A stretch of 64,000 bases of DNA from positions 1 through 64,000 of the forward strand of contig NZ_SOHA01000005.1 in the NCBI RefSeq assembly GCF_004403065.1, written 5' to 3'. Below, one piece after another: positions 7,687-29,436 of this stretch; within the stretch, counting starts at the first letter, position 1, and each line of letters starts with the position of its first letter. This stretch comes from Cryobacterium cryoconiti (lineage in GTDB: Bacteria > Actinomycetota > Actinomycetes > Actinomycetales > Microbacteriaceae). Under the pieces are notes generated by a model, which worked only from the letters and a program-made list of their open reading frames with translations, searched no databases and was not told where the DNA came from. A program made the position numbers and the translations under genes.

Positions 7687-8426
7687 TGGACGGTCTGCTC
7701 CTGGTCAGCCTGGCCGCGGGCATCCTGACCGTCGCGGCACCCTGCGTGCTGCCGCTTCTGCCCGTGATCGTGGGGGGATCGATCGTGAGCGAGGAGGCCG
7801 ATCCGCGTCGGGCGCGCCTCCGCCCGCTGGTCATCGCGGCCTCCCTCGCCGTCAGCGTGGTCGCATTCACCCTGCTGCTCAAGGCGACCACGGCTCTGCT
7901 GGGTATTCCGCCGCAGGTGTGGCAGGTGATCGCCGGCGGCATCGTGGTGCTGCTGGGCGTGAACCTGCTGGTCCCCACGCTCTGGGAGCGGGTGTCCTCG
8001 GCCCTCGGCCTGCAGAACCGCAGCAACCGCGCCCTGGACGCGTCGATCGGACGCCAGAGCCTGGGCGGAGACATCCTCACAGGGGCGGCGCTCGGGCCGG
8101 TCTTCAGCAGCTGCAGCCCGACCTACGCGCTCATCGTCGCGACGGTGCTGCCGGTCTCCTTCGGCGAGGGTCTGCTCTACATCGTCGTCTATGCGGCCGG
8201 TCTGGCAGGCACGCTGATGCTCGTGGCGTACCTCGGCCGGTCCTTCGCCAAGCGACTGGGCTGGCTGGCCGATCCCGCAGGATGGTTCCGCCGGACCGTC
8301 GGCGTGGCCTTCATCCTGGTCGGGATGGCCGTTCTGTTCGGGCTCGACAAGACGCTGCAGTCGTTCATCCTCGATCTCGGCTGGTACGACCCGATCGCCG
8401 GGCTCGAGGAGCTCCTGCGCTCCTGA
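7686..8426 (+). CDS. ccdA: Cytochrome c biogenesis protein CcdA-type thiol:disulfide transporter
   Basis: 246 aa, six predicted membrane helices. It has the CcdA/DsbD-beta hallmarks: an APCVLPLLPVI motif in TM1 (Cys) and GPVFSSCSPTYALI in TM4 (second Cys). These two Cys relay electrons from cytosolic thioredoxin across the membrane. The GTG start at 7686 overlaps the TAG of the thioredoxin lipoprotein gene (TAGTG). No ccsA/resB genes follow, so the pair probably serves general extracytoplasmic reduction, not a full cytochrome c maturation operon. Confidence 0.9.
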   Translation: MDGLLLVSLAAGILTVAAPCVLPLLPVIVGGSIVSEEADPRRARLRPLVIAASLAVSVVAFTLLLKATTALLGIPPQVWQVIAGGIVVLLGVNLLVPTLWERVSSALGLQNRSNRALDASIGRQSLGGDILTGAALGPVFSSCSPTYALIVATVLPVSFGEGLLYIVVYAAGLAGTLMLVAYLGRSFAKRLGWLADPAGWFRRTVGVAFILVGMAVLFGLDKTLQSFILDLGWYDPIAGLEELLRS

Positions 8427-8449
8427 CCCTCCCGGCCAGGCCGAACCGG

Positions 8450-8755
8450 CTAGAGAAAGATCAGAACCAGACGCACCCCGACAGCCAGAATGGCGGTGCC
8501 CGACAGCGCCAGCGACGCGAGCACCAGCCCGCGACCGCGGGCGCCGGCCGGGATGACACCGTAGGCCCGGAGGGAGAGGGACAGCCCGATCAGAGCCGCG
8601 AACAGGGCAGGGAAAGGCAATAGGACCGCGAGGACGACGCTGACGACCGACACCCAGAAACCCGGCACCCGTCCCGGCGTCTTCGACCAGTCCAGGTGGG
8701 GTGCCCCGAGACCCAGCAGATTGTTGCCCTCCATGTTCGCGCGCGGGTCGTCCAC
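8450..8755 (-). CDS. Small membrane protein, DUF4190-like
   Basis: 101 aa from GTG 8755 with AAGGAG 7 nt upstream. A short polar N-terminus (DDPRANMEGNNLLGLG) precedes two or three hydrophobic segments (~30-60 and ~75-100) separated by a basic loop (GARGRG). The layout resembles the DUF4190 family; the function is unknown. It diverges from jetA. Confidence 0.6.
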   Translation of the reverse strand: MDDPRANMEGNNLLGLGAPHLDWSKTPGRVPGFWVSVVSVVLAVLLPFPALFAALIGLSLSLRAYGVIPAGARGRGLVLASLALSGTAILAVGVRLVLIFL

Positions 8756-8869
8756 TTGTCGCTCCTTCAGCTTGTCGTGACAGTCTCACACGCCAGGGCC
8801 CGTCAGACCGCGTCCCTGCCCGTGCGTGGGGGCGGCTACCCTTGAGGAGGCCCGGAAAGGAACTTCTAT

Positions 8870-10372
8870 ATGAGCGAGCTTGCGGGCGAACTGGCACGGG
8901 TGCGCGAAGCGTTCGACAAGCCCACCCTGCGCCTGCTGGACCGCAAGTGGGCGCCGTTCGTGCTCTTCGTGTTCAAGTCCTCCTTCAGCCGCGACCGGCG
9001 CAGCGTGCAGGCCGACCTGCTGCACGCCCAGGTCGACGCGTACCTCGCCGACCTGCGGTCGGTCGGCAGTGACGTCCCGGGAAAGACCGGCCGCGCCCTC
9101 TGCGTGCAGTGGATGAACGATCAGTGGCTCTACCGCGAAACGGGGGAGGGCGATGAGGAGCACTACTCGCTCACGTCGCATGCCCTCGAGGCGCTGTTGC
9201 TGGTCGAGAGCCTGTCCCGCGATCGGGCGTTGATCAGCGAATCCCGTCTCACCACGATCGTCGACACGGTGCGCCACCGCGCCACGCAGGCCAACCCTGA
9301 CCGGGAGGAGCGCATCCGTCGCCTCGACCAGGAGATCGCCGAGAAAACGGCCGAGCGTGACCGCCTCGCGGCCGGCGGCGAGATCGCCGCTGCCTCGAAC
9401 GAGCAGATGCACGAGGGCTATGTCAACCTGATCGACCTGATCAATCAGCTGCCCAGCGACTTCAAGCGCGTCGAAGAGTCCGTTGCCGCCATGCACCGGC
9501 AGATCGTCAACGACTTCCGCGGTGAGGAACGCCCGATCAGTGAGGTCCTCGACGAGTACCTCTCCAAAACGGATGCTCTGATGACGTCGACCCCGGAGGG
9601 CCGGGCCTTCGAGGGAGCCTTCGCTCTGCTCCGCAACGACGACCTCCTGCAGGAACTGGGCGACGACCTCGAGACGATCCTGCTGCACCCCTTCGCCCTC
9701 GAGCTCAGCTCCATCGAGCGTCGCGGCTTCATGGGCACCGTGCGCCTGATCCGGAAGGGCATCGACGCTGTGCTCACCCAGCGCAACGGGCTCACCACCA
9801 CGTTGCGCGAGCACATCGTCAACCACGACGTGGTCAAGGACCGTGAGCTCGAACGGCTGCTGCGCGAGATCAACAAGGAACTCGCCCTCTGGATGGAGAC
9901 CGCCGGGCCCCGCTCCACGGTCACCGCCGAACTCATGCCGGGAACCCTCGACGTGGAGCACCTCCGGGAGCGGTTCTACGATCCGGGTGCCCACCGGGCC
10001 CCGCCTGCGCTGCAGGATGTCTCCGACGACGCCCCGCTGCCGCCGAGTCTCGACGAGATGCGCCAGCAGGGCGGCCCGCTGCTGGGGGAGCTGCGCGACG
10101 CGATCGTGACGGCCTTCAGCCACGGCGAGGCGGCATCCGTCGGCGACGCGTTCAACGAGCTCGACCCTGCCCTGCGCAGGCCGGTCGAAATCCTGGGGAT
10201 GCTGCAGATCGCCACCCAGATCGACGCGGTCAGCCGGGCTCAAACCCTCGAGCGCTTCGAAACCGTCCGGCCGGACGGCTCCACCCGCAGCTTCGCGGTG
10301 CCCCGAATCATGCTCAACGACGACGAAACCGCGGCGCTGTCCGCCCTGAACTACGGATCTGACGATGACTGA
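8870..10372 (+). CDS. jetA: JetA / MksF-like kleisin subunit (DUF3375)
   Basis: 500 aa. DUF3375-type protein: residues ~10-75 read [17 protein letters not shown] then [15 protein letters not shown], followed by a winged-helix segment ([20 protein letters not shown]) and long helices through the middle ([20 protein letters not shown]). In Wadjet type I and MksBEF systems this is the kleisin-like bridge of an SMC complex. AAAGGA precedes the ATG. It overlaps jetB by 8 nt, so the three subunits are made together. Wadjet restricts circular plasmids by loop extrusion followed by cleavage. Confidence 0.9.
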
Positions 10373-11075
10373 CGAGCACACTGACGAGCCCACCGATTTC
10401 GACTCACCCAGCTTTTCCCTGTTCGAGGGCGATGAGGGCGGGCTCACGGTGGAGCAGCGCCGCACCCTGGTGCTGCTGCTGAAGCACCGCTACATCTCCG
10501 CTGCGCTGCAGCCGGCCGAGTGGCAGACCCTGCTGCGCTCCGAGAGCCTGCTCACGTCGCGCCTGAACGACATGTTCCTCGACCTGCACATCGACCGGCA
10601 CTACGAGGTGGCGTTCAAACGGCAGGCGGTGGCCGAGGGCGGTGACCGGTTCCCCACCCTGCTGCACGACGTGTCCTACACGCGCGAAGAGACCATTCTG
10701 CTGGTGCTGCTGCGCCAGCGCTTCCGCAGCGAACGGGCGAACGGCCAGGACATCGTCATCGTGGACCGCGTCAACCTGGTCGAGAACGTCGGGCATTTCC
10801 GGCCCGAGCACGCCACCGACCGCTGGGGCGACGCACGCCGGGCCGCGGCAGCGGTGGACGCACTCGCCAAGGCGCGGGTGCTGCTGAAGACGAGCGACCC
10901 CGACCGGTTCCGTGTCTCCGCCGTGATCGAGGTGCTGCTGCCGGTCGAACGCCTGAGTGAACTGCTCGAATGGCTGGTCAGCCACAACGCCGATCCCGGC
11001 TCTTCAGCGCAATTACCGGAGCACGCCGACCTCGACCTCGCCGATCTCACCGCTCTGCCGGAGGCCCTCGCATGA
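10365..11075 (+). CDS. jetB: JetB / MksE-like KITE subunit (DUF4194)
   Basis: 236 aa. After a short acidic N-terminus come two winged-helix-like units: [38 protein letters not shown] and [14 protein letters not shown]. It matches the DUF4194/JetB position and size. In the complex it is the KITE subunit binding the kleisin JetA and the JetC heads. It overlaps jetA by 8 nt and jetC by 4 nt (ATGA). Confidence 0.9.
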
Positions 11076-14000
11076 CCGACTCCCCGCTGTTCTTCGTCGA
11101 CGGTCTGACCGAGGGCACCACGCAGTGGCGCGCCGAATCGTTCCAGATGGTCAACTGGGGCGGATTCCAGGGCCACCACGAGATCGCCTTCGCGCCGACG
11201 GCCACCCTGGTCTCCGGGGCCTCCGGAACCGGCAAGAGCAGCCTGCTCGACGCCTACCTCGCCCTGATGATGCCCTCGGACACCCCGTTCAACGGCGCGT
11301 CCAACGACGCCGGCTCGGGGCGTGCGCGCAGCGCCGACCAGCGCAGCCTGATGACCTATCTCAAGGGCAAGACCGACGCCAACCGGGAGGCCGGCACGGG
11401 GGAGTTGCAGGACCAGGTGCTCCGCGGTGCCAACGAGTCCACCTGGGGTGCCGTTGCCATGACCTTCATCGACGACAACCAGCGCCGGTTCACCGTATTG
11501 CGGGCCTATTTCGTGCCTCGCGGCGGCACCCGGTTCGCCGATATCACCATGAAGATGGCCACGATCGACGGCTACCTCGACCTGCGCGACCTGGCCGAAG
11601 TGACCGAGTCCCGGTTCGACAAGCGCGCCCTGAAATCCCGGTTCCCCGAACTGGATGTCTTCGACACCTACGCGGCGTTCGCCCAGACCCTCTACACCCG
11701 CCTCGGCATCGGCGCCAACGGCGAGGGCGGCAAGGCCCTGCGGCTGCTCGCCCGCATCCAGGCCGGCCAGCAGGTCAAGACGGTCGACGGGCTCTACAAG
11801 TCGATGGTGCTGGAGGAACCGGCCACCTATGCCGCCGCCGACAAGGCCGTCGCCCACTTCGAAGACCTGGAACGCTCCTACGGGGCCATGGTCGCCGAGG
11901 CGCAGAAGGCCAAGGTGCTCGAACGCCTGCCCGATCTGCACAACGCCTATGAGACGGCCACCGACAAGGCCGACCTGATCGACACGTTCGGCGTGCACCG
12001 CTCGGGCGACACCCCCTTCGTGCTCTGGCAGCTGCGCACCGAGCACACCCTGCTCGAGGGAGCCGCCGACGCCAACCGGCTGCAGCGCCGTGAAACCCAG
12101 GTGCGGCAAACGGCGGCGCGGGATGCCGAAACCGAGTTGAAGGTTCGGGTCGCCGACCTCCAGCGTCAGCAGCGCGAGAACGGCGGAGACGTTCTCGTCA
12201 GCCTGCAGAACGAGCTCGGACAGCTGAGAGACAAACGTGACGACGTGGCCGCCGAACGGGCGAAGTTCGACGAGCGGATCCAGCCGCTCGGGCTCTCCAT
12301 CGACTCCGCCGACGACTTCGACCGGGCCCGCGCCGACGCCGACGCGTTCCTGGCCGGCTTTCCCTCCGCGGAGACCGACCTGGAGGATGAGCGCACCGCG
12401 GTGCAGCGCACCGCCTACCCGATCGAGGAGAACCTCCGCGTCCTGAAACAGGAGCACACGTTCCTCTCGGGCCGGGCCAGCCTGGTCCCACAGCACCTGC
12501 ACAGCGCGCGGCTGCTGATCGCCGAGGCGTCGGGTATCCCCGCCGAGGAACTGCCGTTCCTGGCCGAGCTGATCGATCTGGCCCCCGGCGAAGAGTCCTG
12601 GCGGCAGGCGGCCGAGGTCACCCTCGCCTCCGTCTCGCGCGTCATGCTTGTCGACGAGACCCGCCTGCGTGCACTCAGCCTGGCCATCGACCCTTTGCGC
12701 ATCCCGGTGCGCATCCACTTCGAGGGGGTTCCCCTGCGGGGCCATCAGGAGATCGACGGCGACCCCCGCTTCGTGTCGGGCAAACTCGTCTTCACGGACT
12801 CGCCCTTCAGCGGCTGGGTGCAGGATCGGGTGCAGGCCGCGAACCTCGACGCGGAGTGCGTCGCCACGGCGGCCGACCTGGGCGGGAACGGCCCTCGGGT
12901 CACGCCGAGCGGGCAGACCCGCAACGGCTCCCGCGGCGCCCACGGCTGGAACAGCGACCAGAAGTCGATCATCGGCTTCTCCAGCCGCACCCGCCTGCAG
13001 GACATCGACGGGGAGCTGGCCCGCCTGCGGCTCACGGCCGACACCCTGGCACGGGAGGCATCCGGTCTCGGTTCGCGCCTGGCCGACCTGCGAGCCCGCA
13101 ACGCGGCGCACCGGGTCGTCGCCGACGCCGTCTTTTCGGTCATCGACGTGGCCGCCGCGGACGCCCGCATCACCGACAAGCAGGCCGAACGGGAGAGGGT
13201 CCTCGCCGACAGTGACGTGCTTCGCGCGCTGAAAGACGAGGAAGAGCGGCTGGCGGCCGAGCTGGAGGCCGCGCAGAAGCAGAAGCACGCCACCGAGGGA
13301 GCGCTGCAGGCCCTCGTGACCGAGCAGGGCCGGATCGTGGACCGGCAGGATGCCGTCACCAGCCGGCTCGATCGCATCGACGGTGACCCGGAAGCCGCTC
13401 TGCAGCTGTCCGAGGAGCATGCCACCCACCTCGACGCGCAGTTCGCGGCCGTCGCCGACCAGCACGATCTCGACGCGTTCGACGGGGCCATCAAACGCCT
13501 GCGCGAGCGCCTGACCGAGCAGTCCAGCCAGGACCGGGACAGCGCCGCCGGCGCCCGCAACACCCTGATCGGCATCTTCGAGACCTTCCAGAGCCGCTGG
13601 CCTGACCCCAATATCGGCGTCTCGCTCGATTCCTACCCGAGCTACCGGGACATCCTCGACGCCGTCTACACGCTCGGACTTCATGAGCGACGCCAGGAAT
13701 GGAAACGGCGCCTGGCGCTCTGGAGCGGTCAAGACCTGGTTCCGCTGGTCGGGGCCTTCACCACCTCCATCGAGGAGATCGAGGATCGGCTTCGCCCGAT
13801 CAACGAGATCCTCACCACCCTGCCGTTCGGCGCCGGGCGCGACCGGCTCCAGATCAGTCTGCGCCGCCTGCACCGCGACGATGCCACCGCGTTCCGCAAG
13901 GAGCTCAAGGCTCTGTCCGGGGGATCCACCGTCGCCTTCACCGACGAGCAGACCGAGAGCCGGTTCACCCGGCTGCAGGCGTTCATGGGGCTGATCCGCC

Positions 14001-14464
14001 GTCCCGCCGACGGGTCCCGGCAGGACACGCAGCGCGACCTGCTGCTCGATGTGCGCCGGCACGTGGAGATCACCGCCGTGCGTACCACCCCCGACGGTGT
14101 GGAGGTCAGCACCTACTCCTCTCTCGGCGGCAAGAGCGGTGGCGAGTCCCAGGAGCTGGTGGCCTTCGTCGTCGGAGCCGCCCTGCGGTTCCAGCTCGGC
14201 GACGAGAGCCGCACCCGCCCGCGCTTCGCCCCGGTCTTCCTCGACGAGGGATTCGTGAAATCGGACTCCGAATTCGCCGGCCGGGCTGTGGCCGCCTGGA
14301 AGGGGCTGGGCTTCCAGCTCATCATCGGTTCCCCGCTTGACAAGGTCACGGCGCTCGAGCCGCACATGGAACTGGTGCTCTCGATGACCAAGAACAACAC
14401 GACGGGGTTCTCGTACATCACCCCGCTGTCCTCGCCGCAGCCGGTTCCGCAACCCACACGGTAG
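11072..14464 (+). CDS. jetC: JetC / MksB-like SMC-type ATPase
   Basis: 1130 aa from ATG 11072 (an earlier in-frame start would lie inside jetB). Walker [21 protein letters not shown] (~49-68). Long coiled-coil regions follow (~290-480 and ~670-860) around a central hinge-like segment. ABC signature: [13 protein letters not shown] (~1018-1030); Walker [11 protein letters not shown] (~1052-1061). This head-coil-hinge plan is MukB/SbcC-like, as in JetC and MksB. ATP-driven DNA loop extrusion is established for the family. The gene normally followed by jetD is here followed by an unrelated DUF4383 gene. Confidence 0.93.
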
Positions 14465-14554
14465 GGCCTTGCGCGTTGTCCGCACCGGGCGAAAACTGGG
14501 AATGTTCCACCAACACCTTGTGTACCAACAAATGTGGTCCTAAGGAGGCCCGCA

Positions 14555-15004
14555 ATGACTAGTTCCCTCAACCGGATGTTCGGAATCGTCCTCGGAGCAC
14601 TGTTCCTCCTCCTCGGCCTGCTCGGCTTCACTGCGACAGGCAACGTCGGCTTCGTTGCGACGGAGGGTGGCTTGCTCCTTGGCACCTTCGAGGTCAACCC
14701 GATGCTCAACGTGGTCTACATGCTCCTCGGAGCGGCCCTGCTGATCGGCGGGGTGGCCAGTGTCCGGGCGGCGAAGATCGTCAACGGAACCGTCGGTGGC
14801 ATCCTGCTGCTGATGGGTATCATCGGCTTCTTCATCGTCGGCACCGAGTTCAACTATCTCGCGCTGAACACGGCCGATCACGTCCTGAACCTCGTGACCG
14901 GAGTGGCACTGCTCGGCGTCGCCCTGGCGGCGGAGAGGCGTGCGACACCGGCGATGACAACCACCGCGCAGAAGCAGAGCACCTACACCAGCGACACCGA
15001 GTGA
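14555..15004 (+). CDS. DUF4383 membrane protein
   Basis: 149 aa from ATG 14555, with AAGGAGG 6 nt upstream. Four hydrophobic helices alternate with short loops (GIVLGALFLLLGLLGF, LNVVYMLLGAALLIGGVA, GGILLLMGIIGFFIVG, NLVTGVALLGVALAAE). The conserved N/D-rich positions (FEVNPMLN, LALNTADHVLN) fit DUF4383. Unknown function. It has its own strong RBS and lies 90 nt after jetC, so it need not belong to that operon. Confidence 0.8.
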   Translation: MTSSLNRMFGIVLGALFLLLGLLGFTATGNVGFVATEGGLLLGTFEVNPMLNVVYMLLGAALLIGGVASVRAAKIVNGTVGGILLLMGIIGFFIVGTEFNYLALNTADHVLNLVTGVALLGVALAAERRATPAMTTTAQKQSTYTSDTE

Positions 15005-15079: not shown

Positions 15080-15637
15080 GTGACCGCTATCAAGCTGATC
15101 GTCGATGAGGGGCTCACAATCGCGCTCTCCGCCGTTCGTATGGCGGTCAAGAACGACATCATCGTGGGTGCGCTCGGCGAGCATTCCGACTACGACCCCG
15201 AGCACTATGCGGCGATGGCGCGGCACGAGTTGCACCTGCTCACTCGTCAAAACGAGGAATACGCCCTGCGAGTGAAGCAAATGCGCAGGGCGCTGATCAA
15301 ATCACGGTGGACCGCCGACCTTTCGGAAGACCAGATCCACGACATCAGCCAGCTCAAGCTCCGCCGGCGCGTGCACGAGAAGCTGGCGGTGGCTCTGGAG
15401 GAAGTGGCCGCGGACGACGATCGGGTCGCGCGTCTCGTGCGCCGGGCCCAGCGCGCCGCGAGCGACGAGGTCAGCGACGCGGTGTCCTCACGCCTGATCA
15501 AGTTGAACATCGACTGGCGGGATCCCGACTACGAGGAACGCCGGGCGGCACGCACCGAAGTGTTCCTGCACATCGACCTGGCCCTGCTCAAGCTGAAGCA
15601 CGATGCGGCGATCGGCGCCGACGCCAGCGACTACTGA
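15080..15637 (+). CDS. Hypothetical cytosolic helical protein
   Basis: 185 aa from GTG 15080, with a possible -10 TAAGAT at 15066-15071. No signal peptide or membrane segment. The middle is strongly helical and charged (LHLLTRQNEEYALRVKQMRR; LKLRRRVHEKLAVALEEVAA), and the C-terminus contains IDWRDPDYEERRAARTEVFL. I do not recognise a family with confidence; similar proteins occur in Microbacteriaceae as uncharacterised. Codon use is like its neighbours, so it is a real gene. Confidence 0.7.
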   Translation: MTAIKLIVDEGLTIALSAVRMAVKNDIIVGALGEHSDYDPEHYAAMARHELHLLTRQNEEYALRVKQMRRALIKSRWTADLSEDQIHDISQLKLRRRVHEKLAVALEEVAADDDRVARLVRRAQRAASDEVSDAVSSRLIKLNIDWRDPDYEERRAARTEVFLHIDLALLKLKHDAAIGADASDY

Positions 15638-25746: not shown

Positions 25747-25795
25747 CCGCTGACGTATGCCGTTTCGGGCATCCGTTCCGAGGAAAATGGATCGG

Positions 25796-27499
25796 ATGAC
25801 CACCCCATCGAGCACCACACTCTTCCGAGGCGCGCGCGATCGCCTCCTGCAGCTTCGCGACGGTCATGCGCGTGCCGCGGCCGAATTCGAATGGCCGGAT
25901 GTCGGTGCGAACTTCAACTGGGCCGTCGACTGGTTCGACGTCATGGCCGAGGGCAACGACAAGACCGCACTGTGGATCGTCGAGGAAGACGGCCGGGAGC
26001 TGAAGGTCACCTTCGCGGAGATGTCGGCGCGTTCCGACCAGGTGGCCACCTGGCTGATCGCGCAGGGCGTGGGGCAGGGCGACCACGTCATGCTGATGCT
26101 GGGCAACCAGGTCGAACTCTGGGAACTGATGCTGGCCATCATGAAGGTGGGCGCGGTCATCCTGCCTACCTCCACGGTGCTCGCGACCGGCGATCTGGCC
26201 GACCGTGTTCTGCGCGGTGGGGTGCGCCATGTGATCGCCAACGCCGGCGACGCCGCGAAATTCGACGAGGTCCCGGGCGACTTCTCCCGCATCTGTGTCG
26301 GCGCCGCCACGGACGGCTGGGCCGACTACGCGGATGCCGCCCTCGCACCGGCCGCGAAGCCCGGCGTGGTCGTCTCCTCCGATGACGCCTCGCTGATCTA
26401 CTTCACCTCGGGCACCACCAGCAAGCCCAAGATGGTGGTGCACACGCAGACCTCCTATCCCGTGGGACACCTGACCACCATGTACTGGATCGGGCTCCGC
26501 CCGGACGACGTGCACCTGGCGATCAGCTCGCCCGGCTGGGGCAAACACGCCTGGAGCAGTTTTTTCGCGCCGTGGATCGCCGAGGCCACGGTCTTCGTCT
26601 ACAACTACGCCCGGTTCGATCCCCACGCCCTCGCCGACCAGCTGCACCGCGCGAAGGTCACCACGTTCTGCGCCCCGCCGACGGTGTGGCGCATGCTGAT
26701 CCAGTCCGACGTGGGGGAGAAGCCCGGGGGGCTGCGCGAGATCCTCTCGGCCGGGGAGCCTCTCAACCCGGAGGTCATCCACCGGATCCAGCGGTCCTGG
26801 GGTCTGACGATCCGGGATGGCTACGGGCAGACCGAGACGACGGCGATCGTGGGCAACGCCCCGGGGTCCACGCTCAAGGCCGGTTCGATGGGACTGCCCC
26901 TGCCAGGCGTTGCGATCACGCTGCTCGACCCCATCACCGGGGAGGAGTGCGATGAGGGTGAAATCTGCCTCGACCTGTCCCGCACCGCGGTCAACCTGAT
27001 GTCCGGGTACCACGGCGATCCCGAGCGCACCCGGGAGGCGGTCCGCGGCGGCTACTTCCACACCGGCGACGTCGCCAGCCGCGACGCCGACGGGTACATC
27101 ACCTTCATCGGCCGCACCGACGACATCTTCAAGTCCTCCGACTACAAGGTCTCCCCGTTCGAGGTGGAGAGCGTGCTGCTGGAGCACCCCGCCGTCGCCG
27201 AGGCCGCCGTCGTGCCCGCGCCCGACGACACCCGGCTGAACATCGCCAAGGCCTACATCGCCCTGGCCGCCGGCTGGGAATCCGACGCCGCGACCGCCCT
27301 GTCGGTGCTGCGCCACGCCCGCACCGGCCTGCCTCCCTACATGCGTGTGCGGCGGGTCGAGTTCTTCGAGCTGCCCAAGACCAGTTCCGGCAAGATCCGC
27401 CGGGTCGAACTGCGCCAGCGTGAGGATGCCGCGGCCGCCGGGAAGCACACCCTGCCCGATGAATGGCGAGACGACCAGTTCCCCGAGCTCAAACGCTGA
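25796..27499 (+). CDS. AMP-forming acyl-CoA synthetase (medium-chain/ACSM-like)
   Basis: 567 aa from ATG 25796; ATG 25787 is an alternative (a GAGG lies 3 or 12 nt upstream respectively). ANL-superfamily motifs: LIYFTSGTTSKPKMVVHT (phosphate loop), ISSPGWGKHAWSSFFAPW, GLTIRDGYGQTETTAIVGN, YFHTGDVASRDADGYITFIG, KSSDYKVSPFEVES and the catalytic Lys in PKTSSGKIRRVEL. GYGQTE with the GWGKH motif resembles ACSM/benzoate-CoA-ligase-like enzymes, not Acs. It activates a carboxylic acid to acyl-CoA via acyl-AMP. The 3' end overlaps the convergent kinase gene by 11 bp. Confidence 0.88.
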   Translation: MTTPSSTTLFRGARDRLLQLRDGHARAAAEFEWPDVGANFNWAVDWFDVMAEGNDKTALWIVEEDGRELKVTFAEMSARSDQVATWLIAQGVGQGDHVMLMLGNQVELWELMLAIMKVGAVILPTSTVLATGDLADRVLRGGVRHVIANAGDAAKFDEVPGDFSRICVGAATDGWADYADAALAPAAKPGVVVSSDDASLIYFTSGTTSKPKMVVHTQTSYPVGHLTTMYWIGLRPDDVHLAISSPGWGKHAWSSFFAPWIAEATVFVYNYARFDPHALADQLHRAKVTTFCAPPTVWRMLIQSDVGEKPGGLREILSAGEPLNPEVIHRIQRSWGLTIRDGYGQTETTAIVGNAPGSTLKAGSMGLPLPGVAITLLDPITGEECDEGEICLDLSRTAVNLMSGYHGDPERTREAVRGGYFHTGDVASRDADGYITFIGRTDDIFKSSDYKVSPFEVESVLLEHPAVAEAAVVPAPDDTRLNIAKAYIALAAGWESDAATALSVLRHARTGLPPYMRVRRVEFFELPKTSSGKIRRVELRQREDAAAAGKHTLPDEWRDDQFPELKR

Positions 27500-28913
27500 C
27501 GGCCGCGACCAGGCTCCGGACGGCGGCGAGCGGAATCGGCAGCCACGACGGCCGGTTGAGGGTCTCGTACACGGCCTCGTAGACGGCCTTGTCGAGTTCG
27601 AACGCGTCCAGCAGTGCTTCCTGTCCGGCCAGGCTCTGGCCGGACCGCTCGGCATAGCCGTCGAGGAATCCCTGACGGCAGGCGGCGCCCCACGCTGCGG
27701 CACCCTGGTGGCGGCCGGGCGGGTGGTTCCCGGGCGCGGACCGCTCCACCGTGCCGGCCACGTAGGAGAACGAGCGCAGCATCCCCGCCACGTCCTTGAG
27801 CGGGACGTCGGGCCCGGTCCGGTCGGCCAGGGGACGCAGGGGCTCACCCTCGAAGTCCACCAGAACCCAGCCGCGCCCGGGAACCTCGAGCGCCTGGCCG
27901 AGGTGGAGGTCGCCGTGGATGCGCTGCAGGCCGGGCCAGTACGCCATCTCCGCCCGCAGGAAGACCGCTTCGACGGCCGAACCGTAACCGGCCAGCGCCG
28001 GAACGTCGCGGACGGCGCCATGGAAACGCTCGCGCATGCGTTCCACTTCGGCGGCGATGACTGCCGGAGTTGCCTCCCGGGTCGGCATCACGGCGGCGAG
28101 ATCGGCATGCACCGCGGCGATCGCCTCACCGAGCGCACGCGCCTGTTCACTGAAGTCCTCGCCCGCTCGTGCCGAGGCCAGCGCTGCACGCCAGGCATCC
28201 GGGGCGCCCGGCAGGAACTCCTGGGCGAATGCGAGGTGTCCGGTCAGGCGCACACCCGGCAGCTCCGGATCGACCCACTCGCCGACAACGCAGCCCACCG
28301 GCTCGGGCACGAACCGTGAGCCGGCCCGGGCCAGCGCCGATTGCACGGAAACGTCCGGGTTCTCGCCGGCGTGCAGCATCCGGAACACCTTGCAGATCAC
28401 GGGACGCACGACACGTCCGGCGGCGTCGACTCCGTCGAGGATGATCGAGGTGTTCGACTGCTCACCGCTCAGCACCCGGCTGGAGACCACCACGGCCGGC
28501 CGTTCACCCGGAACGGCGTCGACCAGGAGCTCGCCGCGTGCGCGGGCGCCGGCTGGCCCGGGAACGGTGGAATCCTCGTTCAGGATGAAGGTGAGCAGGG
28601 CCCGGCCGTAGGCCGGGTCACCGGGACCGTCGTACAGGTAGCTGCCGCCGCTGTCGCTGATCAGGGCGGCGTCGCCGCCGGGCAGCGGTGCCCGGCGCTC
28701 GGTGAGCGGCAGCTGATAGAGCGTGCGGGTCGGGGCGGCAGCATCGAAGATCAACTCCGTGCGGATGCTCACGCCCGGCTCCGTTGCCGGCAGCGCCCAG
28801 CGGCCGATGCTGACGAGGCGGGGGACCTCACCCCGCCCGGCGAACCATCGCTGCGTCGCGACCCAGTGGTTGAGGTGGTCCGGGAGTGCGATTACGCGAC
28901 CGTCGTCAGTCAT
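27489..28913 (-). CDS. mak: Maltokinase-like (Mak/Pep2) sugar kinase
   Basis: 474 aa from ATG 28913 (TACTCT -10 six nt upstream). N-terminal cap: LNHWVATQRWFAGRGEVPRL, typical of maltokinase. Aminoglycoside-phosphotransferase-like core: PVICKVFRMLHAGENPDVSV (ATP Lys), the catalytic loop QRIHGDLHLGQALEV and the metal motif VLVDFEGEPLRPL. Family members phosphorylate maltose to maltose-1-P (GlgE pathway) or glucosamine. No treS or glgE gene is adjacent, so substrate assignment is moderate. Confidence 0.8.
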   Translation of the reverse strand: MTDDGRVIALPDHLNHWVATQRWFAGRGEVPRLVSIGRWALPATEPGVSIRTELIFDAAAPTRTLYQLPLTERRAPLPGGDAALISDSGGSYLYDGPGDPAYGRALLTFILNEDSTVPGPAGARARGELLVDAVPGERPAVVVSSRVLSGEQSNTSIILDGVDAAGRVVRPVICKVFRMLHAGENPDVSVQSALARAGSRFVPEPVGCVVGEWVDPELPGVRLTGHLAFAQEFLPGAPDAWRAALASARAGEDFSEQARALGEAIAAVHADLAAVMPTREATPAVIAAEVERMRERFHGAVRDVPALAGYGSAVEAVFLRAEMAYWPGLQRIHGDLHLGQALEVPGRGWVLVDFEGEPLRPLADRTGPDVPLKDVAGMLRSFSYVAGTVERSAPGNHPPGRHQGAAAWGAACRQGFLDGYAERSGQSLAGQEALLDAFELDKAVYEAVYETLNRPSWLPIPLAAVRSLVAAVSV

Positions 28914-28917
28914 AGCG

Positions 28918-29436
28918 TCAGAGTACGCCCGGGCCGGCCACGGGAGCCGCCAGAAGGGAGACCACAACCGTGTCGCCCTTCGTGGACTGCTCGCCGATCG
29001 GCACGAAGCCCAGTCGGGAGTGGAACGCCAGGGACCCGGGGTTCGCCGGTTTGACGTTCACCTCGCAGAAGACCTCGCCGACCTCGGACTCGCCGGCCGC
29101 GGCGAAGATCGCGGTGTAGAGCAGCCGGCCCAGACCCTGGTTCCGGGCCGTTTCGGACACCACAATGCGGTCGACGTAGAGGAAGGCGTCGGACCGGGCC
29201 GAGAACCACCGGTAGTTCTCGCTCGCATAGTCGGCGCCGGCGCCGAAAAGCACGGCGAAGCCGAGCACCTCGTCCGGAGCGGCGTCGTGCACCACGCAGA
29301 GGGCCTGACTGCTGACCGCGAGCAGGGCGGTCAGGCTGGTCGCGTCGTGCGGATTGACGGCCGGTACAGCCGCGTTGTTGAGCCGGAGAACGGTGTCGGT
29401 GTCGGTGGGGCGAAGGCGTCGGAGCGAATAAGGCAT
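28918..29436 (-). CDS. GNAT family N-acetyltransferase
   Basis: 172 aa from ATG 29436. RPTDTDTVLRLNNAAVPAVN begins the fold. The acetyl-CoA loop is IVVSETARNQGLGRLLYTAI, and VNVKPANPGSLAFHSRLGFV closes the domain. This subgroup (predicted GNAT related to COG3818-type proteins) has no assigned substrate. It ends 4 nt before the kinase start on the same strand. Confidence 0.85.
   Translation of the reverse strand: MPYSLRRLRPTDTDTVLRLNNAAVPAVNPHDATSLTALLAVSSQALCVVHDAAPDEVLGFAVLFGAGADYASENYRWFSARSDAFLYVDRIVVSETARNQGLGRLLYTAIFAAAGESEVGEVFCEVNVKPANPGSLAFHSRLGFVPIGEQSTKGDTVVVSLLAAPVAGPGVL
28920..28925 (-). promoter_or_regulatory. -10 element TACTCT, leaderless kinase start
   Basis: Minus-strand TACTCT ends 6 nt before ATG 28913. 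It lies within the last codons of the upstream GNAT gene. Confidence 0.45.

Follow-up and report, generated by a model that had tools for sequence, protein, structure and literature searches.

A JetABC operon without JetD in Cryobacterium, probably a second condensin

The window analyzed here is a stretch of 64,000 nucleotides (nt) from Cryobacterium cryoconiti (contig NZ_SOHA01000005.1, positions 1 to 64,000). It carries jetA, jetB, and jetC, three of the four genes of a type I Wadjet system (JetABCD), without a gene for the nuclease JetD. In Cryobacterium, JetABC is probably a nuclease-free second condensin beside Smc, a state that would have been reached independently of MukBEF and MksBEF; we give this reading a probability of about 60%. 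JetC dimers, together with the JetA kleisin and the JetB KITE subunit, would make up a dimeric motor, powered by ATP, which would load on DNA and extrude loops. In the absence of JetD, stalled or completed extrusion would not be followed by cutting, and the complex would act as a second condensin that helps to fold or segregate the chromosome, like MksBEF of Pseudomonas aeruginosa. We infer both loop extrusion by this complex and its chromosomal role.

The original prediction, which was made from the DNA alone, described overlapping genes for DUF3375, DUF4194, and SMC-type ATPase proteins, and the open reading frames (ORFs), Pfam, and PADLOC all agree with this. The three genes are co-directional; jetA and jetB overlap by 8 nt, and jetB and jetC overlap by 4 nt (ATGA). 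The features are as follows (aa, amino acids):

8870..10372, + strand: jetA (mksF), DUF3375 kleisin subunit, 500 aa; Pfam DUF3375, E = 4.6e-106 over 12-482; PADLOC JetA, 611 bits
10365..11075, + strand: jetB (mksE), DUF4194 KITE subunit, 236 aa; Pfam DUF4194, E = 4.9e-34; PADLOC JetB, 358 bits
10419..10445, + strand: JetB N-terminal motif LFEGDEGGL, residues 19-27, from an alignment of 18 JetB rows
11072..14464, + strand: jetC (mksB), SMC-type ATPase, 1130 aa; Pfam SbcC_Walker_B, E = 1.8e-22, and AAA_29; PADLOC JetC, 1362 bits
11216..11239, + strand: JetC Walker A, GASGTGKS, residues 49-56, from the sequence
14117..14143, + strand: JetC ABC signature region, SSLGGKSGG, residues 1016-1024, from the sequence
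14225..14254, + strand: JetC Walker B, residues 1052-1061, from the sequence; it lies within the Pfam SbcC_Walker_B match over residues 991-1077

The length of JetC is counted from the ATG inside the ATGA overlap. Its Walker A, signature, and Walker B motifs are all intact. In phmmer searches, JetA matched solved JetA chains (the best was 8q72, E = 1.1e-15), and residues 22-1100 of JetC matched the solved JetC 8dk2 (E = 6.3e-41). JetB as a single sequence had no match in the Protein Data Bank, and a profile built from the 18 JetB rows matched the solved JetB 8dk1 (E = 7.3e-15).

JetD was not found among the scanned flanking genes by Pfam or PADLOC. Across the whole assembly (3.43 Mb in 46 contigs, completeness 100), there were no matches to JetD_C (PF09983) and none to DUF3322 (PF11795); of 14 control genomes, only Corynebacterium glutamicum matched in these searches. 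The predicted absence of jetD next to jetC is therefore correct, and the domain search found none in the rest of the genome either. The genome does contain ScpA and Smc (ScpB was not searched for), so JetABC is an additional, second condensin-type SMC complex.

The same arrangement is found throughout the genus. An orthologue of JetC (64-100% identity) is present in 53 of 57 Cryobacterium genomes, that is, in all but G043, G052, G054, and G055 (G and L numbers are our labels for genomes and loci), and the named orthologues with 91-93% identical JetC are from Cryobacterium. None of the 53 genomes has a match to JetD_C beside the orthologous jetC. The contig continues for at least 1.3 kb after jetC in 52 of them; in G042, just 240 bp remain before the contig ends.

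JetC seems to descend within the genus much as Smc does. We compared protein distances on gap-free columns in 26 genomes (the 30 of the 57 for which an Smc locus was retrieved, minus G052, G054, and G055, which lack the orthologue, and G041, whose jetC is frameshifted). JetC and Smc distances were correlated (Mantel r = 0.874, with 0 of 2,000 permutations as high; Spearman correlation 0.449), their mean distances were 0.221 and 0.241, and their trees had 13 of 23 splits in common. Smc itself is present in 56 of the 57 genomes; the sole match in G045 falls inside its JetC. The operon is also under purifying selection: across five close genomes (10 pairs per gene), the ratio of nonsynonymous to synonymous substitution rates (dN/dS) was 0.06-0.15 for jetA, 0.03-0.15 for jetB, and 0.12-0.14 for jetC, so that all 30 values lay within 0.03-0.15. 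Together, the Smc-like inheritance, the low dN/dS, and the intact motifs indicate that the motor is kept much like a housekeeping condensin. We also found relatives of JetC in 16 plasmid records and one phage record. All of these were less than 60% identical, so the window's own lineage was not found on the plasmids or phages of those collections. In the phage record (MT835499.1, 54 kb, human faecal samples), positions 25760-28966 code for a protein similar to JetC that aligns to 96% of the query at 26.5% identity.

Where did JetD go? The closest relatives of this JetC outside the genus are from Glaciihabitans, and jetD lies directly after jetC in Glaciihabitans tibetensis (JetC 75% identical), in a Glaciihabitans metagenome-assembled genome (72%), and in Streptosporangium amethystogenes (61%). 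In the JetC tree, the Cryobacterium clade without JetD (95*) lies beside Glaciihabitans with JetD (99*). JetD distances follow JetC distances, with r = 0.913 over 23 loci that have JetD and r = 0.821 over the 13 of them in the window's lineage (0 of 2,000 permutations in each case), and the JetDs of these 13 loci group in a single clade (100*). As JetD is co-inherited with JetC, its absence is most simply explained by loss, although parsimony alone cannot separate gain from loss. Read most simply, these trees point to a lineage whose ancestor had JetD, with its loss on the Cryobacterium stem. Across other Micrococcales, the repeated absence of JetD would most simply be due to loss as well. A tree of 93 JetC rows, built without 14 near-duplicates and without L223, where the contig stops after jetC, has 10 changes in JetD state, at least 9 of them on starred branches; long branches meet in this tree, so the counts are approximate. 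An earlier tree of 88 rows had eight changes. A loss-only model gave a count of 19, which did not change when weak branches were collapsed; this is probably a parsing failure, and we do not rely on it. The placement of the JetD of L171 varies: one JetD tree puts it with the lineage of the window, and another puts it with canonical JetDs.

Three pairs of loci, each from a single genus, illustrate the change at closer range. First, L171 (with JetD) and L175 (without) align at 82-83% on both flanks of jetD. Positions 8366-9549 of L171 (1184 bp, including jetD) are missing from L175, where 39 bp are left. Second, L221 (with JetD) and L222 (without) are 93% identical through jetC and 85% identical beyond it. 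Third, L166 and L165 are 92% identical through jetC, and only L166 has JetD. We also ran tblastn with 28 JetD proteins on 102 loci without JetD (53 from Cryobacterium and 49 others from the family), covering as much as 4.5 kb past the end of jetC, and the best E value was 0.038. As no JetD pseudogene is visible in these loci, the losses look clean or old.

The slot of jetD is occupied in some of these loci. In L222, it holds 1.8 kb with a minus-strand ORF (oriented coordinates 8052-9815, 588 aa), which by eye looks like a phospholipase-D-type (HKD) protein. In L169, a relative of L171, it holds an opposite-strand ORF (oriented 8432-9859, minus), presumably, again by eye, a transporter of the MFS kind. 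Among the JetDs that are still present, 14 aligned proteins have the acidic residues E245, D290, D292, E370, and E372 in common (in the alignment's own numbering). The JetD of Glaciihabitans tibetensis (L038) keeps these invariant acidic residues and departs from two near-invariant positions (N246 to D and G295 to S). Judging from these substitutions, decay of JetD may have begun in this lineage, the closest one to the genus without JetD.

Operons without JetD are also common outside Cryobacterium. In a sample of 398 genomes from the family, 101 had matches to JetC and 48 had matches to JetD_C. Outside Cryobacterium, JetD_C was absent within 5 kb at 40 of 47 places where JetC was at least 34% identical, and at 12 of 48 places with 31% identity or less. 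(Six weak fragments were left out and split matches were merged; the contig of G350 ends after jetC.) In a sample of 376 genomes from the order, 162 had JetC and 84 had JetD_C. Among the places listed, excluding Cryobacterium and the family places already counted, there was no close JetD_C at 36 of 40 (34% identity or more) and 48 of 96 (31% or less); the contig of G597 ends after jetC, and the five weakest places, four with JetD_C close by and one without, were left out. In the genus g51, all seven genomes examined have the operon without JetD, with neighbors in common. Two families of the order sample, f12 and f6, have JetC at 26-31% identity with no close JetD at 29 of 34 and 15 of 18 entered places, respectively, which suggests more nuclease-free lineages beyond that of the window.

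These comparisons bear on what the original prediction had said of other genomes. It had considered that jetD might always sit beside jetC and have been lost by deletion only here. jetD does adjoin jetC in the nearest relatives, and the state of the operon in the window looks derived by loss; yet the absence is genus-wide (jetD adjoins jetC in none of the 53 genus loci) and recurs in other genera and families. It had also listed an MksBEF-like chromosome condensin as one option; the comparative evidence favors this option as the probable function.

How does the operon compare to known systems? In a Wadjet system, according to passages of PMC12647877, dimeric JetABC extrudes the plasmid, and JetD is activated once extrusion is complete. 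The operon resembles the type I Wadjet systems JetABCD of Escherichia coli GF4-3 and P. aeruginosa PA14 in having DUF3375, DUF4194, and a MukB-like SMC protein in the order A-B-C: the JetA kleisin, the JetB KITE subunit, and the JetC SMC ATPase are all present. It differs from them in that no JetD nuclease is present at the locus or in the genome, and in that it is near-universal in its genus and tracks Smc. It has the features of an MksBEF-type system, namely a MukB-like SMC-kleisin-KITE operon without MksG and a stable, vertically inherited chromosomal gene. Like MksBEF of P. aeruginosa PAO1, it encodes a three-subunit MukB-like complex of the condensin type beside Smc; unlike it, it would have arisen by loss within an actinobacterial JetABCD lineage and has sister species with JetD. 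Passages of PMC7617805 describe several members of the Wadjet group without MksG or JetD, including MukBEF of E. coli and its relatives as well as MksBEF. It is not a MukBEF, which would have MukB by sequence and would replace Smc-ScpAB (passages of PMC10586767 state this replacement): JetC falls below the cut-off of the Pfam MukB model (E = 0.00078), and ScpA and Smc are present. Finally, C. glutamicum MksBEFG is likewise an actinobacterial MukB-like complex that coexists with Smc-ScpAB, but it has MksG and, according to parts of PMC7083940, affects plasmids and has no measurable role in chromosome folding.

The role of MksBEF in P. aeruginosa is in chromosome organization and segregation (passages of PMC7485682). 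Parts of a review (PMC10586767) state that this MksBEF likely lost JetD and that a history as defense systems has been proposed for MukBEF and MksBEF. As the nuclease-free MksBEF of the PAO1 type is chromosomal and the nuclease-bearing MksBEFG of C. glutamicum is directed at plasmids, a chromosomal condensin is the likeliest role for the complex of Cryobacterium.

Several results weigh against this reading, and the chief one concerns the surface that JetD would contact. JetD contacts JetABC at sites that include an IFDR motif at the N terminus of JetB, as described in parts of the same review (PMC10586767). We defined conserved positions on 15 rows with JetD and scored them in 11 Cryobacterium rows, which keep 25 of 27 in JetA, 20 of 22 in JetB, and 97 of 98 in JetC. 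In the N-terminal motif of JetB, G22, D23, G25, and L27 are invariant over the 18 rows, with and without JetD (no row from the group c30 was included). When the JetB profile is aligned to the solved chain, the alignment starts inside or just after this motif, so the motif is a candidate, at most, for the equivalent of IFDR. If it serves JetD, then its persistence would speak for a partner that is still bound. The interface thus shows no visible decay in Cryobacterium, which argues against a surface that is free to drift and would allow for a different partner or for an additional role of these surfaces. We therefore rejected interface decay as a mark of JetD loss in Cryobacterium, since the conserved columns persist there, as does the JetB motif. 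The other points against a housekeeping condensin are smaller. The orthologue is missing from 4 of 57 genomes, and jetC is frameshifted in 3 of 53 (L115, L116, and L117, from G041, G024, and G008, respectively, each a one-contig assembly), so jetABC is probably not essential. These frameshifts could be sequencing errors; the other 50 JetC frames are unbroken, and the stops flagged in G009, G032, and G049 sit at the C-terminal end. The 10 of 23 splits that are not common to the JetC and Smc trees make some transfer within the genus possible. The plasmid-directed role of MksBEFG in C. glutamicum, set out above, is a further point.

The group c30 differs in this respect. It keeps fewer of the conserved positions (15 of 27 in JetA, 16 of 22 in JetB, and 85 of 98 in JetC), and the JetB motif is not recognizable in its rows without JetD, in its one row with JetD (L171), or in L186, which is a divergent locus with JetD. 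As the motif is missing from c30 rows of both kinds, it does not track JetD there.

The main rival explanation is that the complex restrains plasmids without cutting them: JetABC would fully extrude small circles and only compact, silence, or mis-segregate them, and jetD would have been lost because cutting is costly. The retention of nearly all tested positions in JetABC and of the JetB motif, as in relatives with JetD, fits this explanation, and so does the action of C. glutamicum MksBEFG on plasmids rather than on chromosome folding (parts of PMC7083940). We nevertheless consider it rather unlikely. The system occurs in nearly all genomes of the genus, follows Smc in its inheritance, and does not evolve more quickly than Smc. 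Defense modules are expected to be patchy, and the patchy ones in this genus are other systems, which do have JetD.

Those systems can be seen from JetD_C, which is present somewhere in 23 of the 57 Cryobacterium genomes. In 19 of these 23, a second JetC is adjacent, at 24-28% identity to ours, or 33% in G021 (a partial match) and 49% in G023. In G023, the orthologue without JetD coexists with a complete JetABCD (C39:94732-98040, locus L121) that belongs to the same broad lineage, which offers a natural comparison in the same cell. In the other four genomes (G018:C33, G019:C47, G022:C1, and G036:C48), the JetD_C matches are shorter (59-152 positions) and lie away from the jetABC orthologue, and no second JetC is listed. 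They may be what is left of a canonical Wadjet operon that these genomes have lost.

A less probable explanation is that JetABC recruits a nuclease from elsewhere, either a JetD in trans or an unrelated enzyme. The original prediction had raised such a nuclease; for a recognizable JetD homologue in C. cryoconiti this fails, given the lack of either JetD domain in its genome, and it could hold for an unrelated nuclease. The retained JetB motif is consistent with a recruited partner. Among the 53 genomes with the orthologue, JetD_C is present elsewhere in 21, beside a second JetC in 17 of these, but the other 32 have no match to it at all. In addition, the distances among JetD sequences mirror those of the JetCs beside them, which speaks against free exchange of JetD. 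A replacement effector beside jetC was also considered and rejected: among the 25 largest clusters of flanking ORFs (80 loci in nine groups), none is a constant partner. Nearly all of these clusters are confined to one genus group. Two span groups, one with eight loci (three from c30, two from Cryobacterium, two from c37, and one with JetD) at scattered distances and on scattered strands, and one with seven (six from Cryobacterium, and L133).

It is very improbable that the operon is the decaying remains of a Wadjet system about to be lost: the three frameshifted jetC genes and the four genomes lacking the orthologue would fit, but the low dN/dS, the intact JetC motifs, the 50 unbroken frames, and the retention across the genus would not. 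An assembly artefact, with jetD in a gap or on a missing contig of our 46-contig assembly, is refuted by the same locus in two one-contig genomes without JetD_C (G031 and G044); besides, the operon lies inside its contig, the DUF4383 gene follows after about 70 nt, and completeness is 100.

JetD-less complexes of the Wadjet group were already known; the evolutionary pattern described here seems not to have been described in the literature that we searched. In the open-licence part of PubMed Central, we found no report of JetABC lacking JetD in Cryobacterium or Microbacteriaceae or of repeated loss of JetD in Micrococcales, although the operon list in Data S1 of PMC7617805 may include these loci. 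We infer that, in Gammaproteobacteria, the step from defense to condensin is old. Here it would be visible at short range, in loci with and without JetD from one genus whose jetABC are 92-93% identical, and, in the pair L171 and L175, in a clean gap in place of jetD with conserved flanks. The JetD-bearing sister species of a genus without JetD, together with the near pairs, are natural matched pairs for asking how a loop-extruding defense motor affects the chromosome of its own cell after losing the ability to cut. Also, a match to the models for JetA, JetB, and JetC should probably not be read as proof of a working plasmid-cutting system.

More tentatively, and with somewhat less than an even chance of being right, we propose a broader view: the anti-plasmid motor may have become a housekeeping second condensin many times independently by loss of jetD, both in Micrococcales and, perhaps, in a wider range of Actinomycetota. 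jetABC would have stayed nearly unchanged, and the JetB surface that is presumed to bind JetD might be kept by a second, chromosomal function, such as a site for a loader or unloader.

The genes around the operon vary. Downstream of jetC, the gene at 14534-15004 encodes a DUF4383 protein (Pfam E = 6e-21), as was predicted. The upstream gene, on the minus strand, encodes a membrane-like protein of 101 aa; it had been described as DUF4190-like, but its sole Pfam match is to DUF5429 (E = 0.008), which is below the cut-off. In the Cryobacterium loci that we compared, neither gene accompanies jetABC consistently, and scans of the locus for promoters, terminators, and PHROGs matches added nothing. 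Further downstream, at 15080-15637 (+ strand), is a gene for a protein of 185 aa without a Pfam match. It is near jetABC in just part of Cryobacterium, and its position varies: depending on the species, it lies downstream of jetABC or upstream of jetA.

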